Shown: in pieces, positions 7,448 to 30,287 of the stretch | Layout of the letters: each line of letters begins with the position of its first letter | Position numbering within the stretch: the first letter of the stretch is position 1 | Source: Treponemataceae bacterium | Lineage (GTDB): Bacteria > Spirochaetota > Spirochaetia > Treponematales > Treponemataceae | Reading direction: 5' to 3' | Assembly: GCA_024680915.1 (NCBI GenBank) | Contig: JAILBN010000076.1 | Location: 1 to 33,285 of the forward strand | Length of the DNA stretch: 33,285 nucleotides | Translations under genes and position numbers: made by a program | The notes under the pieces: generated by a model | Database searches by the model: none | The model's input: the letters and a program-made list of their open reading frames with translations, nothing else | What the model was told of the DNA's origin: nothing

Positions 7448-9223
7448 CTATTCTTTTTGCTCATACTTCTGCTCCCCTGAATTGTAAGGAATGCATACCT
7501 GAAGAGATGTACCGGTCCTTTTTCCTTCCTTGTCGATTTCGGGCAAAGCCCTGATTCCGTATTGAGTACCGAATAAAATCTGAAGACGATATTGTATGTT
7601 CTGAAGCCCGAAAGAATTGGATTCAGTTTGTTCTGTACCTTCTATGATCCTATTGATTTTATCCGTATCGGTTGTCATTCCATTGTCTGTAATCTGTATC
7701 AGCAAATTTTTTCCTTTTATCATAAAGGAAAGGAATATGCTGCATACTCCCCTGTGTTTTTCCAGTTGATGTCTTATACAATTCTCCACGATAGGCTGTA
7801 TCGTCATTTTGGGTAGCATCTGGGTCTTGTCCACATTGCCTTCGTCTATACTGAATTCCAGCCTGTCCTCGAATCTTATCTGCTCTATTACTATATAATC
7901 ATGAAGCAGCTCAAGCTCTTCCCCTAGAGAAATAATATCAGGTTTTTTTATTGATGAGCGGAGTAAATTACTGAGGGCCAGCGTCATTTCTGCGGTGGGC
8001 TGGTCTTGGGAGGCTACTGCGTTCCAATGTATAGTCTCCAGGGTATTATAGAGGAAGTGAGGGTTTATCTGTTTCTGCAGCATCTTGTATTTGATATCCG
8101 CTATAGTCAGCTGTTTTTGGTAAACTTCTGTTATAAGCCTGTTTATACGGGTTATCATTATATTGTAGCTTGTGGTGAAGTCCGCTATTTCCTGTACAAT
8201 CTGTTGTTTGGGGACGGGTAAGGTCTCCAACATGTCGTCTTTGGCGTTGAGCATCAGTTTTGACATACGCGTAAGGGGGTTACAGGTTTCCCGGATGATA
8301 CGGTTTATAGAAATGATTATTACTATGCCGAGGAGAAAATAAATCACGTAATACCAGGTGTTTGCTAAGGACACTTTTTTCATGGCAGTATCCATATCCA
8401 TGATATGGATAAAGGTCCAGCCGTCCACTTTTGAGTTTATCCTTCTGTAAACAGTCTTCGCGTTGGTGTCCAGCATAATGTCTGCTTCAGGTGGTTCCGC
8501 GAGAAGTGAGGCTATACGGGGTTCCTTGTATATGGGATTGTCATAGTCATACTGCATACCGTTTATGTAGCAGATGAGCCTGGAATCATGGTTCTCTTCC
8601 GTCATGTAACCGTAAGGAACCAGAATCTCTGGGTTCAGGTACATTATAAGGACACCGTAAGACCGGAAGGCGTCTATGGGGTATATGGAACGAATGGATT
8701 TTGCGAAAACTATCATGGTCGGATTTTCCGGGTCAATACGCCATATATTCCTTCCCTTTTTATTGACAGCCTCTTGCCTGACTTCTTCAAGGAATTCTTC
8801 TCTTGGCTGTATAAGGGACCGGTTCAGTATATTCATCCTGTAGTCGGAATCGAATATAAAGTAGGTGGCAGAAACGTGCTGAATATTGACAGTGACATTG
8901 AAAAATAAGTCATTTAGGGCTTTCATGGCTACGTATGCTTCGTAAGTTCCTGGGTTGTCCTTGCTGGTTTTTAGGTTTGTCTGTATTGTGGAGTTTCCCA
9001 CGATATCTATAGACAGCTGTCCTAGATCTTTCAGGTTGCGCTCGACTGTCTTAGTGTAGAGTGTAAGCTTGTCCGCCGATTCGGAGAGGATAAGCTCATT
9101 GTATATCCTGGCAATTCCTCGTTCCATAAGAATATATACAATATTAAGTATGAGAAATTGTATGATGATTATTTCGAATATACGTTGCTTCAGTGGTCTG
9201 GTCGACTTTTTTGAACCTTTCAT
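7448..9223 (-). CDS. YesM-like sensor histidine kinase
   Basis: The 591-residue membrane kinase has two transmembrane segments (about 14-33 and 288-306) flanking an extracytoplasmic sensor region of ~250 residues. A HAMP-like stretch follows, then the His_kinase module with the phospho-acceptor His in NPHFLYNTLETIHW. The ATP-binding part shows the N box (QPIVENCIRH), ITDNGM and SFGLQNIQYRL. It should phosphorylate the adjacent response regulator. There is no Shine-Dalgarno sequence before the ATG. Instead an extended -10 box (TGTTATAAT, 9243-9235) ends 11 nt upstream, implying a leader of only a few nucleotides. The gene is divergent from the sugar-binding-protein gene. Confidence 0.92.
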   Translation of the reverse strand: MKGSKKSTRPLKQRIFEIIIIQFLILNIVYILMERGIARIYNELILSESADKLTLYTKTVERNLKDLGQLSIDIVGNSTIQTNLKTSKDNPGTYEAYVAMKALNDLFFNVTVNIQHVSATYFIFDSDYRMNILNRSLIQPREEFLEEVRQEAVNKKGRNIWRIDPENPTMIVFAKSIRSIYPIDAFRSYGVLIMYLNPEILVPYGYMTEENHDSRLICYINGMQYDYDNPIYKEPRIASLLAEPPEADIMLDTNAKTVYRRINSKVDGWTFIHIMDMDTAMKKVSLANTWYYVIYFLLGIVIIISINRIIRETCNPLTRMSKLMLNAKDDMLETLPVPKQQIVQEIADFTTSYNIMITRINRLITEVYQKQLTIADIKYKMLQKQINPHFLYNTLETIHWNAVASQDQPTAEMTLALSNLLRSSIKKPDIISLGEELELLHDYIVIEQIRFEDRLEFSIDEGNVDKTQMLPKMTIQPIVENCIRHQLEKHRGVCSIFLSFMIKGKNLLIQITDNGMTTDTDKINRIIEGTEQTESNSFGLQNIQYRLQILFGTQYGIRALPEIDKEGKRTGTSLQVCIPYNSGEQKYEQKE

Positions 9224-14968: not shown

Positions 14969-16492
14969 TCACATGATAGGCGAGAAAAGCTTACAGAAGC
15001 TCCATACTGTTCTTTGCAGTATGAAACGAGAGTTGAACCATGCCAGCTCCATCTCTTCTGATTTTTCCAAATCCTTTTTGAAAATAGAACTGTTATACTT
15101 TGCGAAACCCTCGTCATAGAAGACCATATTCATTTCAAAGTGAAGCTCAAAACTCCTTGTGTCGATGTTCGTGGTGCCTATGGTTATCAGCTTATCATCT
15201 ATTATAAGCATCTTTGAGTGAATGAAGCCCGGGTATGCATAGAATTTTACGCCATATTCCATGATCTCTCTTATAAACTGGAAGGCGGCGGCCTTTACAT
15301 AGCTTTTGTCCCAGTCTCTTGGGACTATCACGTATACCTTCCTTCCTGCCATCGAGGCCAGCTTGAGAGCGGAGAAAAAAGCCTCGTCAGGTGTAAAATA
15401 TGGTGTCTCTATGTATATGCTTTCCTTTGCGTTCATAATCATCCGTATCATACAGTCCCTGATTTGATGCTTGTGGTTGTCGTTCGGACTGGAGAGGAGC
15501 AGCTGTACCGGAATTATATCGTCTCCGGGTACATCGTTCATGAGGTTATCGCTGATTTCATTATTCAGGGACTCTATTTTTTCCAGTGGGAAATAGGTCT
15601 CTGTTTTTTTCAGGGATTTTATTGATTTTTTCCCGTAGGCACAACTGTAATAATCAATCATAAAAGTTATCAGCATTGCTGCGACGCAAGAGCCGGTCAT
15701 TCTTAGGTGGGTGTCACGCCAGGGTTTGTCTGGATTTTTCCCTAAGCCTATTATGTATTCGTCTCCAATATTTATGCCGCCTATATAACCTATTTTTTCA
15801 TCAATTATGACGTTTTTCCTATGATTGCGGAAATTTACCGTAAGTGGGGGGCCTATTCTTATGGGGAAAAAAGGAATACTAGATCCACCTGCATTGTCCA
15901 GCTTACGGAAAAAAAATCTGCGGGTAAGCAAGGACCCGAAGTCATCGTAGAGAAGCTTTACGTCTACCCCGTTCTCAGCTTTCCTGCAGAGGATATCCAT
16001 AATCTGCTTACCTATATCGTCTTCCCTGAAAATAAAAAACTCCATGAAGATGCTTTTTTCCGCAGATTCCAAGTCTTCTATAAGGGACTTGAACATATCT
16101 TTACCGTTGGTGAACTCCGATATAGTCTCTGTATATGCTATGTTACTTATGGCATTATTGAAATTCATCTTTACTATATCGCTGTATTCTATAAGTGTTT
16201 TGTTTTTTATTTTCGATTTGATTTTCTCGAAATATTGTTCCTGCTCCATTACATAGGGTGTGGTACGGCTGTAGATATATTTCTGTATATTATCCATCTT
16301 ACGTGTTTTTGTGAAAAAATGACCACTGAGCATGAAATACAAAAATATACCGACTCCTGGAAGAAAATATATTATAAACATCCAACTGAATTTTCGGCCA
16401 GCATCTTTTCTTTCAAAAAAAAGGATGAACAGTATGAAAAGGATTTGAAGAGAAGTGATCAGATAGCTGAAGATATTCCACGTTATTTCCAT
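14969..16492 (-). CDS. cls: cardiolipin synthase (phospholipase D family)
   Basis: The 507-residue membrane enzyme has two N-terminal transmembrane helices (about 7-24 and 35-57) and two phospholipase D modules. The HKD motifs are HRKNVIID and HSKMLIID, each followed by the usual glycine/threonine-rich strand (GYIGGINIGDEY; TIGTTNIDTRSF). Bacterial Cls joins two phosphatidylglycerol molecules to make cardiolipin and glycerol; length and layout fit. There is no Shine-Dalgarno sequence. TATAAT ends 7 nt before the ATG with TTTATA 17 bp upstream, predicting a leaderless mRNA. It converges with the glycosidase-like gene across 28 nt without an obvious terminator. The family symbol is used without a paralogue number. 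Confidence 0.92.
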   Translation of the reverse strand: MEITWNIFSYLITSLQILFILFILFFERKDAGRKFSWMFIIYFLPGVGIFLYFMLSGHFFTKTRKMDNIQKYIYSRTTPYVMEQEQYFEKIKSKIKNKTLIEYSDIVKMNFNNAISNIAYTETISEFTNGKDMFKSLIEDLESAEKSIFMEFFIFREDDIGKQIMDILCRKAENGVDVKLLYDDFGSLLTRRFFFRKLDNAGGSSIPFFPIRIGPPLTVNFRNHRKNVIIDEKIGYIGGINIGDEYIIGLGKNPDKPWRDTHLRMTGSCVAAMLITFMIDYYSCAYGKKSIKSLKKTETYFPLEKIESLNNEISDNLMNDVPGDDIIPVQLLLSSPNDNHKHQIRDCMIRMIMNAKESIYIETPYFTPDEAFFSALKLASMAGRKVYVIVPRDWDKSYVKAAAFQFIREIMEYGVKFYAYPGFIHSKMLIIDDKLITIGTTNIDTRSFELHFEMNMVFYDEGFAKYNSSIFKKDLEKSEEMELAWFNSRFILQRTVWSFCKLFSPIM

Positions 16493-16499
16493 TTTTTAC

Positions 16500-16528
16500 A
16501 TTATATCTTAATAATCTAGAAATATAAA
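16500..16528 (-). promoter_or_regulatory. promoter abutting the cls start codon
   Basis: Minus-strand TTTATA (16528-16523), 17 bp, TATAAT (16505-16500), then 7 nt to the ATG at 16492. The -10 is perfect; the -35 matches 4 of 6. Transcription should begin at or next to the A of AUG. Confidence 0.5.
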
Positions 16529-26058: not shown

Positions 26059-27207
26059 TCATTCCATTTCTGAAAGTGCGTTCTGGGCAATCACATCGTC
26101 AGGGTCATATTCAAGAACAGCGGTGAAATATTGACGCGCCGAGGTGTAATCTCCCTCTTTTTTTGCAAGGAAACCTAAATTTGACATTATTTTAGTGTTC
26201 TCTGGATCTATCTGCAATGCAGTGTGAAGATTTTTCCTGCAATTGTCGAAATCCCCAGTCTCCATGCAGCATATAGCCAGTTCGTTGTATGTGTCGCAGT
26301 TATTACCACCTAGGGTTATAGCCTGGTTGAAAGCGCTTTTTGCATCTTCATAGCGTTCCAGCCTTCTCAAAGCCCAACCCAACATGAACCAGGCATTCCA
26401 TATTTTAGGATTTTTCTCTATGAAGCCCTTGATCTGCTCCAGGCCTTTTTCTTCTTGCCCCATGGAAATAAAATCAAAGGCACTTTTGAAAAGCTCATCG
26501 TCAAGATTCCGCGATGCAATATCTTCTATTATTTCTTTAGCCCTTTCTTTTTTATACTTCTCGTTTTCAGACAGCTTTTCATCATCTTGGCCGGATACAA
26601 GGGAGAGATAGGTATCCAAGCAGTCCTTGCCTTTGGAGTAATTTTTTTGTCGAAGGTAGAAAAAAGCAGCGTTGAAAAAAGCATCGGGTAAAGGCGGGTC
26701 AGCGGCCATAGCCTCTTTGTAGTATCTGAAAGCCATGTCGTCGTATGCGTCCGCATCATCGTTCAAGCCGGATCTTCTGTAGGATTCTGCTCTTTGGTCG
26801 AAAAACAGGGCTGTGTTCAGGACTGTGGGCATGTCGTCCGGATCGAGTCCTCTTAGTGCTTCGAAAATTTCTTCGGCTATGTCGAAATCCTCGTTTTTTG
26901 TCTTTAATATGGCCGCTTCTGTAAGCTCCTGCTTGATGTTGGGTTTCGCCTTCTTGATGATGCTCCTGTAGTAGAGTATGTTCTTGTTTTCCTTGTCATA
27001 GGCAAGTACTGTGAGGATTCCTGCCAGGATCATCTCTGGAGTGAGTTGTGAGATGTCAAGCTTTGCTTTGTCAAAAACACCAGCCTGTACCGGAAGCTGG
27101 ACCGGCAGAGGTATCGTGGTATCGATATGCATTGATTCCCTTGAAAGCTTGAAATCTTCAGGAATGTTTATAAAAATGATAGAGTCGAGTGGGTTGGTTG
27201 GTGTCAT
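26059..27207 (-). CDS. tetratricopeptide-repeat protein
   Basis: The 382-residue protein has no signal peptide and should be cytoplasmic. The N-terminal ~90 residues show no repeat pattern. From about residue 100 onward TPR motifs recur, clearest in the last third (AWFMLGWALRRLERYEDAKSAF, then NELAICCMETGDFDNCRKNL and SNLGFLAKKEGDYTSARQYF). TPRs mediate protein-protein contact; the partner is unknown. AAGGA sits 5 nt before the ATG. It follows the PilZ gene by 38 nt on the same strand, so a role next to c-di-GMP output is plausible but inferred only from position. Confidence 0.85.
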   Translation of the reverse strand: MTPTNPLDSIIFINIPEDFKLSRESMHIDTTIPLPVQLPVQAGVFDKAKLDISQLTPEMILAGILTVLAYDKENKNILYYRSIIKKAKPNIKQELTEAAILKTKNEDFDIAEEIFEALRGLDPDDMPTVLNTALFFDQRAESYRRSGLNDDADAYDDMAFRYYKEAMAADPPLPDAFFNAAFFYLRQKNYSKGKDCLDTYLSLVSGQDDEKLSENEKYKKERAKEIIEDIASRNLDDELFKSAFDFISMGQEEKGLEQIKGFIEKNPKIWNAWFMLGWALRRLERYEDAKSAFNQAITLGGNNCDTYNELAICCMETGDFDNCRKNLHTALQIDPENTKIMSNLGFLAKKEGDYTSARQYFTAVLEYDPDDVIAQNALSEME

Positions 27208-27245
27208 GATTGTCCTTGTTTATTGGGGTTTATAAGCACATCTGC

Positions 27246-28310
27246 TTACTGCTGTGTTTGATTTGTAACTTCCTCAGTTTTAGCGACAGCGGCTTGTTCT
27301 TGTTCAGCAGCTTCTTGTGGAGCCTGAGTTTGAGACTCTTCCGGTTCTTTTTGTTGGGTTGTCTGGTTTTCTGCCTCTTGTGGCTGGGACTGAGGTTGAG
27401 TCTGCACATGAGCAAAAGCAGCTTTTGCCTGTGCCTGGGCATCTGCTTGTGTGATGGGTTGTTCTGGAGCTGCCTGTGCCAGGTCAGACGGACTGAAGAC
27501 GACAGAAAGCTGCTTCTTGCGTACAGCTGTAAGATATTGGTTTATATGAAGTTTGTAGACCATGGGAACACTTGCTTCATCGAAACGTATTGAAAGGGAC
27601 ACAAGATCCTTCCTGCCCTCTATTGTCTCTGCCCCTACTATCCTTCCTTTTATGCCTACAGGTTCGTGGGTATCTTCAAAATCCAGCCGTATTATGACAT
27701 CTTTATCTACAAGGAATTTGGCCAGTCCAAGAATGACAATTTTTGTTCCAGAGAAGGAAAGATCACGTATTATACAGTGGCGGGGTACATTCTGTATGAA
27801 AACGAGAGTTTCCTCTTTTACGAGCTGGAGTTTCCTTTTGGAATCGACAGAAATTACAATACGCTCTTCTTTTCTACGGATGGCATTTATGTTGGCCTCA
27901 AGCAGGCGCCCTATTATCTCTATCAGATCGTCAGGTGGACGTTGCGTGAAGGTAAGGGTTATAAGAGCAAGGTCATTGGATGTGGCGTAGGGGGTGATGT
28001 TTGTGACTTTTGTGTTGACAAAAAAACACAAGGGCTGTCCGTCTGGTTGTATGAAACAGAATCTAAGGCTGGCAGCAGTATTATCTTTTTTCAGCTGTGT
28101 GTATGCTCCACCTTTTGCACTGATAATAATCCGTGCAGAAAGAAAAGATGTTGAATTTATGATACAAGGCCATTGAGATCCTGCGCATTTTATATATATT
28201 TGACGGGGATCCAGGTTGAGTGTTTTAATGATTTCTTTCGTAAAGGTTATTTCTTTATCACGATACATATCGTAATAGTTAGTAATCTGCTGAGTGGTAG
28301 CTGTACCCAT
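27246..28310 (-). CDS. PilZN3-PilZ c-di-GMP receptor with Gln-rich tail
   Basis: The 354-residue protein has an N-terminal YcgR/PlzA-like domain (about 1-140). A PilZ domain follows with both ligand motifs intact: RKEER (146-150) for RxxxR and D184-L-S186-F-S-G189 for DxSxxG. It should bind c-di-GMP, as related spirochaetal proteins (Borrelia PlzA, T. denticola TDE0214) do. Beyond about residue 285 is a ~70-residue low-complexity tail rich in Gln, Glu and Ala. There is no Shine-Dalgarno sequence. A promoter (28318-28346) ends 7 nt before the ATG, predicting a leaderless message. The TPR gene downstream, in contrast, has a normal ribosome-binding site. Confidence 0.88.
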
Positions 28311-28317
28311 AAAGTAG

Positions 28318-28346
28318 ATGATAGTTTATTTAATGTGATTCGTCAA
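28318..28346 (-). promoter_or_regulatory. promoter abutting the PilZ gene start codon
   Basis: Minus-strand TTGACG (28346-28341), exactly 17 bp, TATCAT (28323-28318), then 7 nt to the ATG at 28310. Both boxes match the sigma-70 consensus at 5 of 6 positions. The predicted transcript starts at or next to AUG. Confidence 0.65.
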
Positions 28347-28373
28347 TCATTTGCAAGACTTGTATTTTTTTAC

Positions 28374-28402
28374 TTGAAAAAAAATCCCTTATCAAATAAG
28401 TT
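28374..28402 (+). promoter_or_regulatory. promoter-like element before the CbiK-like gene
   Basis: TTGAAA (28374-28379), 17 bp, TAAGTT (28397-28402), then 6 nt to the ATG at 28409. The -35 matches 5 of 6, the -10 only 3 of 6. An alternative -10, TATCAA at 28390-28395, would instead serve the ATG at 28433. Confidence 0.4.
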
Positions 28403-28408
28403 GTCTTA

Positions 28409-29446
28409 ATGCAACAGAATGATGGAGCTTGTATGAATACAGCCAAAAACGGGAAAAGATTGATAGAGTCTCATAAAAGAAATATTTGTGGTGATGATCC
28501 ATCTCCGGACTCTTTCGGAGGTAATGAAGGGAATTTGATAAAAGATAATCCCCTCAATCAGGATGGAATCGGGGAGAAGGAAATATTGGTGGTAAGCTTT
28601 GGCACCTCCTTTAATGATAGTCGTATAGCTGATATAAAGGGGATAGAGGATGCAATGCAGGCCTTGAATCCCGGATGGTCAGTACGGCGGGCTTTCTCGT
28701 CTCAGATAATCATTAATCACATACTGACCCGGGATAGGGAAAAAATTGACAATATGGAGGAGGCCTTTGAACGGGCAGTGGCAAATGATGTGAAAAAACT
28801 CGTGATCCAACCTACTCTTCTTATACAGGGGACTGAATATGACGAGCTGGTGCGGATAGCGGAGCTTCATGCCCCGTCTTTTGAGAATATCCTTCTTGCA
28901 GAACCCTTGCTGGGACTTGTGGGTGATAGTGCTTCTTCCCTCAATCCGGACAAAGCTATAGTAGCCAGGGAAATCACGAAGGAAGCTGTTAAGGAAGCCG
29001 GTTTTTCATCCCTTTCGGAAGCTAAGACCAAGGGAACTGCTTTTGTTTTTATGGGGCATGGAACTTCTCATCCTGCTAAGATAAGCTACATCCAAATGGT
29101 CTCTCAGATGGAGGAGCTTGGTTACGACAATGTTTTCGTGGGGACTGTGGAAGGAGAGCCTGAGGAGACGGCTTGCAAGGTAGTTATTGAGGATGTGAAG
29201 AGGGCCGGGTATAAGAAGGTTGTCCTTCGGCCCTTGATGCTTGTTGCCGGGGATCATGCCAATAACGACATGGCCGGGGACGATAAGGATTCTTGGAAAA
29301 GTTTGTTCGGGATGTCAGGCGCGTTCGATTCGATAGTATGCCAGACAGCAGGGCTCGGGAGAATCCCTTCGATCCAGAAGCTGTATGTGGAGCATACTAA
29401 GGCGGCCTGCAGGAGGATTACCTCAGAAAATACACTTTCTGATTGA
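28409..29446 (+). CDS. CbiK-like sirohydrochlorin cobaltochelatase/ferrochelatase-type chelatase
   Basis: The 345-residue protein contains a class II (CbiK) chelatase domain from about residue 58: ILVVSFGTSF, FVFMGHGTSH (metal-site His), GTVEGEPE and LMLVAGDHANNDMAGDDKDSW (second metal-site His). CbiK inserts Co2+ into sirohydrochlorin in anaerobic B12 synthesis; iron or nickel insertion into related tetrapyrroles is also possible. The first ~55 residues are a polar extension with no signal peptide. Two starts compete: the ATG at 28409 with a promoter-like element 6 nt upstream and no ribosome-binding site, and the in-frame ATG at 28433 with GGAG 5 nt upstream. No other cobalamin gene is in the window. 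Confidence 0.87.
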   Translation: MQQNDGACMNTAKNGKRLIESHKRNICGDDPSPDSFGGNEGNLIKDNPLNQDGIGEKEILVVSFGTSFNDSRIADIKGIEDAMQALNPGWSVRRAFSSQIIINHILTRDREKIDNMEEAFERAVANDVKKLVIQPTLLIQGTEYDELVRIAELHAPSFENILLAEPLLGLVGDSASSLNPDKAIVAREITKEAVKEAGFSSLSEAKTKGTAFVFMGHGTSHPAKISYIQMVSQMEELGYDNVFVGTVEGEPEETACKVVIEDVKRAGYKKVVLRPLMLVAGDHANNDMAGDDKDSWKSLFGMSGAFDSIVCQTAGLGRIPSIQKLYVEHTKAACRRITSENTLSD

Positions 29447-29471
29447 CTTGAATACTGTTTATCAGTAAATT
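29443..29471 (+). promoter_or_regulatory. promoter abutting the start codon of the polytopic membrane protein gene
   Basis: TTGACT (29443-29448) overlaps the chelatase stop codon; a 17-bp spacer leads to TAAATT (29466-29471), then 6 nt to the ATG at 29478. The -35 matches 5 of 6 and the -10 4 of 6. No Shine-Dalgarno sequence is present. Confidence 0.55.
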
Positions 29472-29477
29472 CAATAC

Positions 29478-30287
29478 ATGCTTTTGTTTTTTCTGAAAAA
29501 GAACTTTTGTGATGGATGGGACAATCTTCTTTGGTTGATGGCCTTCAATCTTTTGTGCGTGGCGGTAGTTGCCGGTGTTTATTTCGGAATGGGCGCGGTC
29601 GTGGGGCTGACGATGATTCCCGAATGGCTTGCCATCGTATTGTCCCTCGTTGTTCTTATCGCGGGTATTTTCCTGCTTTCCACGATTCTTTTTTCTGTCA
29701 GTGATGTGTGTGCGAAAATCGCTGATTTCAAGTCATCATCTTATAAGGAAGTTTTCTCCGGACTTAAGAATTCTTGGAAGGATGCCATATTGTTCTCTCT
29801 CCTTATGACATTTCTTGTTATCCTTGGCTTCGTCGCCATTCCGTTTTATCTCAGGATGGGCGGCCTCATAGGAGTTTTCCTGGCATCCCTTGTTTTCTGG
29901 ATGCTTTGTATTTGTCTTCTTTCACTGCAGTGGTTCCTGCCTCTTCGGTCCCAGCTTCATGGCGGTTTTAGAAAAACTCTTAAAAAATGCTTCATAATAT
30001 TTTTTGATAACGCCGGTTTTTCTATTTTTATGTTCTTCTATACATTGATTCTTGCAGTTCTCTCCGTCTTCCTTGCTTTCCTTGTCCCTGGATTCGCAGG
30101 AATAGCACTTGCAGAGAATAATGCTTTCCGCTTGCGTCTTTACAAATATGACTGGCTGGAGGCCCATACCGATCTTACTCCGAAAGAGGCCCGTAAGCAT
30201 ATTCCTTGGGGTGAGCTTATTGCCGAAGATCGTGAGACTCTTGGACCCAGGTCGTTCAAAAGCTTTATTTTCCCCTGGAAGGATTGA
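29478..30287 (+). CDS. polytopic membrane protein of unknown function
   Basis: I cannot assign a function to this 269-residue protein. It has about five to six hydrophobic segments (roughly 17-42, 46-75, 100-122, 125-150 and 178-205). The C-terminal ~60 residues are hydrophilic and include AENNAFRLRLYKYDWLEAH and KEARKHIPWGELIAEDRE. The layout is loosely like DUF624-type or spirochaete-specific inner-membrane proteins. The ATG lacks a ribosome-binding site but has a promoter ending 6 nt upstream. A strong terminator follows. It lies between a chelatase and malQ, and neither neighbour suggests a role. Confidence 0.7.
   Translation: MLLFFLKKNFCDGWDNLLWLMAFNLLCVAVVAGVYFGMGAVVGLTMIPEWLAIVLSLVVLIAGIFLLSTILFSVSDVCAKIADFKSSSYKEVFSGLKNSWKDAILFSLLMTFLVILGFVAIPFYLRMGGLIGVFLASLVFWMLCICLLSLQWFLPLRSQLHGGFRKTLKKCFIIFFDNAGFSIFMFFYTLILAVLSVFLAFLVPGFAGIALAENNAFRLRLYKYDWLEAHTDLTPKEARKHIPWGELIAEDRETLGPRSFKSFIFPWKD

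Follow-up and report, generated by a model that had tools for sequence, protein, structure and literature searches.

Do some genes of this treponeme carry promoters placed so close to their ATGs that transcription would begin at the start codon, giving leaderless mRNAs? The question was raised by the window, that is, the whole stretch of 33,285 nucleotides analysed here (positions 1 to 33,285 of contig JAILBN010000076.1, assembly GCA_024680915.1). It belongs to a Treponemataceae genome of 3.15 Mb in 134 contigs (the home genome); the named relatives nearest to it are metagenome bins of the Treponemataceae and Spirochaetaceae, several of them derived from ruminants or horses. A sequence-only reading of the window had proposed that three neighboring genes, encoding a PilZ-domain protein (pilZ), a CbiK-like protein (cbiK), and a membrane protein, are leaderless. 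The spacings on which this proposal was built, 17-nt spacers and gaps of 7, 6, and 6 nt between the -10 hexamer and ATG, are present base for base in the sequence. No Shine-Dalgarno (SD) sequence was seen at the three ATGs concerned (28310, 28409, and 29478), and the TPR gene behind pilZ does have, as had been stated, an SD (AAGGA) 5 nt before its ATG at 27207. The two outer genes and the TPR gene are arranged as follows.

28341-28346, minus strand: -35 box of pilZ, TTGACG.
28318-28323, minus strand: -10 box of pilZ, TATCAT, 17 nt from the -35 box and 7 nt before the ATG at 28310.
27246-28310, minus strand: gene for a PilZN3-PilZ protein (Pfam PF20424 and PF07238), predicted to be leaderless, with transcription starting within 0-2 nt of the ATG.
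27213-27217, minus strand: SD sequence AAGGA of the TPR gene.
26059-27207, minus strand: TPR gene downstream of pilZ, SD-led.
29443-29448, plus strand: -35 box of the membrane protein gene, TTGACT, overlapping the cbiK stop codon (29444-29446).
29466-29471, plus strand: -10 box of the membrane protein gene, TAAATT, after a 17-nt spacer and 6 nt before the ATG at 29478.
29478-30287, plus strand: membrane protein gene, predicted to be leaderless.

Hexamers alone mean little in this DNA, since a scan of 6 kb returned 11 promoter-like sites versus 8.2 expected (sd 2.9), that is, not above chance; the promoter-like site of cbiK was absent from these 11. The informative feature is the fixed distance to ATG, and this distance was therefore tested instead. 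The sample comprised the window and further stretches of the home genome, in total 818,973 bp or 26% of the genome. Gene starts were predicted by a simple purpose-made caller based on coding hexamers, after which nearby SD-preceded starts were given priority (97 starts were moved). The sample contained 605 genes with 100 nt of upstream sequence, including 342 first genes (divergent from the upstream gene or at least 60 nt away from it), of which 161 were without SD and 181 with SD. The -35 and -10 boxes were scored jointly with hand-set weights, and the background expectation for site counts was taken from gaps of 30-59 nt.

The sequence-only reading had suggested such a tally of the -10-to-start distance against SD, for first versus internal genes, and in this 26% sample a peak at 6-8 nt was found in SD-less first genes: 43 sites lay 6-8 nt before the start versus 6.1 expected. 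Counted by gene, this corresponds to 41 of 161, compared with 5.3 +/- 2.2 (maximum 12) in 100 dinucleotide shuffles, and the peak persisted at four score thresholds (e.g., 34 vs 2.4). No peak was observed in the 181 SD first genes (3 sites vs 7.9 expected at 6-8 nt), and SD-less genes inside operons (n = 58) had 4 sites versus 1.4 expected. Depending on threshold and gap range, the excess over background amounts to 30-39 genes, equivalent to 9-11% of first genes in the sample and 5-6.5% of all genes in the sampled 26%. When the whole genome was searched for TTGACA-N17-TATAAT-N6-ATG with at most two mismatches, which may also fall in the ATG, 63 matches were obtained versus 10 for the reversed pattern. 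The candidates are scattered across the sampled contigs, and the idea that the three genes form a special cluster was rejected. Another candidate is located in the window itself.

16500-16505, minus strand: TATAAT box of the gene at 14969-16492 (minus strand), with a gap of 7 nt to the ATG; score 8.2, no SD, leaderless-like.

In addition, no SD precedes the gene at 7448-9223 (minus strand), whose ATG follows a TATAAT at a distance of about 11 nt; it may have a very short leader.

The same pipeline was applied to two small controls. In 250 kb of Escherichia coli K-12, none of 50 SD-less first genes fell in the peak (2.3 expected), and plasmid MP1 of Deinococcus radiodurans (150 kb), the positive control from a lineage in which leaderless genes are known, gave 5 versus 0.9 (n = 48), or 10 versus 2.4 at a lower threshold (n = 48). 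We also analyzed 80-200 kb of each of five further genomes of the order (Treponematales), from four families and with GC contents of 43-70%. Observed and expected counts at 6-8 nt among their SD-less first genes were 8/0.8, 8/0.8, 5/0.3, 3/0.3, and 3/0.4, with P = 0.004 and 0.008 for the last two, each of which had 14 such genes. The suggestion that the arrangement is a regular pattern in this lineage is thus supported, as the home genome and five others of the order all peak at 6-8 nt. Similar results were obtained with the pilZ comparison set, which consists of the best 80 of 375 loci (Treponema group), leans to close relatives, and is not made up of independent cases: with pilZ left out, 102 sites were found versus 12.4 expected at 323 SD-less first genes, and 2 versus 16.4 at 284 SD first genes.

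These counts bear on one alternative, in which the genes lack an SD but are leadered and initiated through S1 or AU-rich sequences, with the promoter further upstream and the near-ATG hexamers being coincidences of AT-rich DNA. The upstream DNA is indeed AT-rich, and 171 sampled SD-less genes have no near-ATG promoter, implying either that such initiation exists in this genome or that their starts were miscalled. However, coincidence would hardly give a peak that rises sharply over flanking positions and shuffles, that has a paired -35 box at 17 nt in 38 of 47 high-scoring starts, that is missing from SD genes and from E. coli, and that includes a conserved case such as pilZ. We consider this alternative very improbable.

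The middle gene of the three requires a different reading.

28374-28402, plus strand: promoter-like site TTGAAA (28374-28379), 17 nt, TAAGTT (28397-28402), 6 nt before the ATG at 28409.
28424-28427, plus strand: SD sequence GGAG of cbiK, 5 nt before the preferred ATG at 28433.
28433-29446, plus strand: cbiK (Pfam PF06180), read as a leadered, SD-led gene.

The ATG at 28433 is in frame, 24 nt downstream of 28409, and was also chosen on coding score alone. Two relatives of the same genus (G001 and L076) have a cbiK start with AAGGAG, followed by a lipoprotein-like signal peptide, and an extra C-terminal domain (523 and 521 codons from stop to stop); in G004, a similar hydrophobic N-terminal stretch follows a weaker AAAAAGGC. 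The cbiK of the window has neither the signal-peptide N-terminus nor the extra C-terminal domain of the two close relatives, and its chelatase looks cytoplasmic rather than exported. Considering the SD at the in-frame ATG 28433 and the AAGGAG in two of three same-genus relatives, cbiK was rejected as a leaderless candidate; more likely it is SD-led and has a leader of 24 nt. Of the three genes first proposed, pilZ and, within its genus, the membrane protein gene are retained, and cbiK, already singled out as the weakest case because of its second ATG, is not; the second ATG is the better supported one.

Could the other starts be wrong in the same way, with the real start lying downstream behind an SD? 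This is the likely situation at cbiK. On the other hand, the N-termini of the two remaining proteins are kept in relatives (MGxATSQQIT in PilZ and MxxFFxKKxF in the membrane protein), and the tally had given nearby SD-preceded starts priority before anything was counted. As an explanation of the arrangement, miscalled starts are very improbable.

The conservation of pilZ was examined in the same best 80 of 375 loci. The best promoter lies 6-8 nt before the ATG in 72 of 80 and 6-9 nt before it in 76, an SD was found at only 1 of 80, and the -35 box has TTGAC in 60 loci and TTTAC in 15. The 77 promoters that were aligned include 73 distinct sequences, in which the positions flanking the boxes show little conservation. 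Within the spacer, a pair of bases is conserved.

28328-28329, minus strand: A-T pair conserved within the pilZ spacer, 5-6 nt before the -10 box.

The frequencies of A and T are 0.88 and 0.96, respectively, in the 73 distinct aligned promoters (loci L076-L155). The candidate promoters of the home genome, taken together, lack this pair, which is possibly a regulator site. The TPR family behind pilZ has an SD in 64 of 77 cases and is leaderless-like in none of the 77.

A broader view was obtained from the home genome and 19 relatives, in which the pilZ gap is 6-9 nt in 14 of 20 genomes and 11-14 nt in 5 of 20 (families f2-f4), the latter implying that pilZ has a leader of about 5-8 nt in those genomes; L069 has an SD-like word in place of a near promoter. 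A phylum-wide draw of 120 genomes contained 26 with the domain, and 25 loci besides the home genome were read for pilZ. In genomes of the same family the gap is 6-7 nt in 10 of 11, and one (G061) reads a GTG start. Elsewhere, gaps of 11-13 nt were found in three genomes of family f6, 10 nt in one genome of f8, 7 nt in G016 (f5), and 12 nt in G015 (f4). An SD-like word was read at pilZ of G122 (f9), G034 (f22), and G044 (f10), and neither a promoter signal nor an SD was found at pilZ of G021 (f10). This distribution suggests that the leaderless state of pilZ belongs to the home branch. In f7, another family of the class, a strong SD (AAAGGAGAGG) precedes the pilZ-domain gene in each of four small genomes (L243-L246), and no promoter adjoins it. 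The pilZ initiation mode thus appears to differ between branches.

The membrane protein, which has no Pfam match at an E-value of 0.001, was compared across 18 loci (L029-L046); L041 is cut by a contig end, leaving 17 including the home genome, and three weaker matches (L047-L049) were kept outside the count. A promoter scoring at least 8 of 12 with a gap of 6-8 nt is present in 10 of 17, comprising 7 of 7 in the genus, where the gap is 6-7 nt in all seven genomes, and 3 of 10 beyond it. By eye, four other loci (L036, L042, L044, and L046) have TTGAC or TTGCC, 17 nt, a TA-box without the last T, and 6-9 nt to the ATG; L037 and L043 have weak boxes, and the best box in L039 is 21 nt away. No SD was found at this gene in any of the 17 genomes. 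In the home genome the membrane protein gene and pilZ flank cbiK, and they are adjacent and codirectional in two genomes of family f3. In these the membrane protein gene immediately precedes pilZ, at a distance of roughly 50 nt in G014 (C146:119355-120997) and 110 nt in G017 (C12:1414-3130). Even there, pilZ still carries a promoter, with gaps of 11 and 14 nt to the ATG.

The DNA arrangement, its statistical excess, and its conservation are directly established. Taken together, they make it very probable that pilZ and the membrane protein gene are leaderless and cbiK is a leadered SD gene, and that the arrangement is used by a minority of genes and has been kept across relatives. Judged from the DNA, transcription would start at the ATG and translation would initiate at a 5'-terminal AUG. 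In such a mechanism, RNA polymerase at a sigma-70-type promoter close to the open reading frame would begin transcription on the A of the ATG or 1-2 nt away from it; the resulting mRNA would be taken up by the ribosome without SD pairing; and downstream genes, e.g., the TPR gene after pilZ, would be initiated conventionally by SD.

A somewhat unlikely alternative is that these mRNAs have very short leaders of about 1-8 nt, with the AUG near but not at the 5' end. Gaps do range from 6 to 9 nt within Treponema and reach 10-14 nt in some other families. Against this, the commonest gap among the 47 high-scoring starts of the home genome is 6 nt (25 starts, with 14 more at 7 nt), placing the usual start on the A, 6 nt being the textbook distance from the -10 box to the transcription start. 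A pyrimidine bias at position -1 leans, weakly, to the same side. A pyrimidine is expected there before a start at A, and in the home genome it was found in 39 of 47 leaderless-like starts (score of 7 or more). Among SD-less first genes of low score the count was 41 of 74 (P = 0.002), and among SD first genes it was 100 of 155 (P = 0.02). For the other loci, the three corresponding counts were 60 of 82, 79 of 137 (P = 0.03), and 162 of 237 (P = 0.49). As a fingerprint of the start point, the -1 base was set aside: it is modest at home, and in the other loci it fails to tell the candidates apart from SD first genes.

Start codon usage was also different in the leaderless-like genes. All 47 leaderless-like starts of the home genome are ATG, as are those of pilZ and the membrane protein gene, compared with 141 of 171 among SD-less genes of low score (P = 0.0005). 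With pilZ counted in, the best 80 of 375 loci use ATG in 151 of 162 leaderless-like genes versus 256 of 352.

To what extent the same genes are involved in different species was analyzed in 33 orthologous families (724 genes, pilZ excluded). Concordance was seen in 952 pairs versus a permuted mean of 246 (maximum 390), and at a control distance of 35-39 nt it was 6 versus 6.2. This concordance may stem from shared ancestry of near relatives and not from selection; ancestry does contribute, since the families come mostly from the pilZ neighborhood in related species. Leaderless-like starts were found in 6 of 6 members of an Hsp33-like family and 27 of 49 members of a family that we take, from a sequence motif, to be MurB-like; a presumably cysteine-tRNA-ligase-like family had 0 of 43 and an SD in 42.

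Searches against NCBIfam were carried out for 29 of the home genome's 62 candidate proteins (score of at least 5, first and internal genes) and for one relative's protein. Matches above the curated cut-offs included LepA, LysS, a PBP1A-family protein, MutS, ClpB, TruA, PurN, and signal peptidase I. The protein taken from a relative resembled Hsp33 but scored below the cut-off of that model, and several candidates had no NCBIfam family. Because MutS and TruA are located only 2 and 12 nt behind a codirectional gene, they may be false candidates. No functional theme was seen among these 29 proteins and the relative's protein. A more ambitious reading seems unlikely to us: that selection has long kept the PilZN3-PilZ protein gene, the murB-like and Hsp33-like genes, and others leaderless in Treponema and its order because the cell can thereby re-weight their translation against SD genes under particular conditions, as a translation-level regulon common to species.

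Leaderless bacterial genes are already known, and what is new here is their gene-specific conservation in Treponema and its order. In the open-access literature, as far as its accessible text goes, no report of leaderless mRNA in Treponema was found, nor was a genome-wide transcription-start map for Treponema found in that literature. The accessible part of a study of Treponema denticola gives a mapped promoter of the flaA gene cluster with TTGACT and TATACT boxes (PMC9481697), indicating that such hexamers act as promoters in Treponema; the leaders mapped there are 14 nt (flaA gene cluster) and 124 nt (another transcript), neither being leaderless. Evidence against the leaderless reading comes from a base-composition survey, whose accessible text reports no leaderless-like signal in 6 Spirochaetes (mean PC3 of -3.25; PMC5397173).

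According to the accessible text of Zheng et al. (2011), leaderless genes were predicted for 6 of 18 Spirochaetes genomes, at a mean of 3.9% of genes (1.8-6.9%), the other 12 having none by that method (PMC3160421). The 5-6.5% estimated here falls in the upper part of this range. In addition, pilZ and the membrane protein gene resemble the TA-led genes described there, which have TANNNT about 12 bp before the start and no SD. The word "Treponema" is absent from the main text of that paper, and its accessible part contains no gene-level conservation for spirochaetes.

If transcripts confirm the present reading, a -10 box 6-8 nt upstream should be counted among the start signals when start codons are annotated in these genomes. 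Treponema would then be well suited to finding out why genes stay leaderless, with particular genes keeping this state in many species. It would also join Leptospira, Actinobacteria, and Deinococcus as a regular user of leaderless mRNAs. Leptospira interrogans belongs to the same phylum but to another spirochaete branch, and its starts were mapped by dRNA-seq in 2017, whereas ours are deduced from DNA; the accessible text reports about 440 genes with a primary start no more than 10 nt from the start codon and no common motif besides sigma-54 (PMC5243855), whereas clear -35 and -10 boxes are present here. In Deinococcus-Thermus, the accessible text likewise describes a -10 box adjoining the open reading frame, read as leaderless expression, in about 30% of open reading frames (PMC12340547), whereas in the treponeme the arrangement is limited to a small minority of genes and usually includes a -35 box as well.
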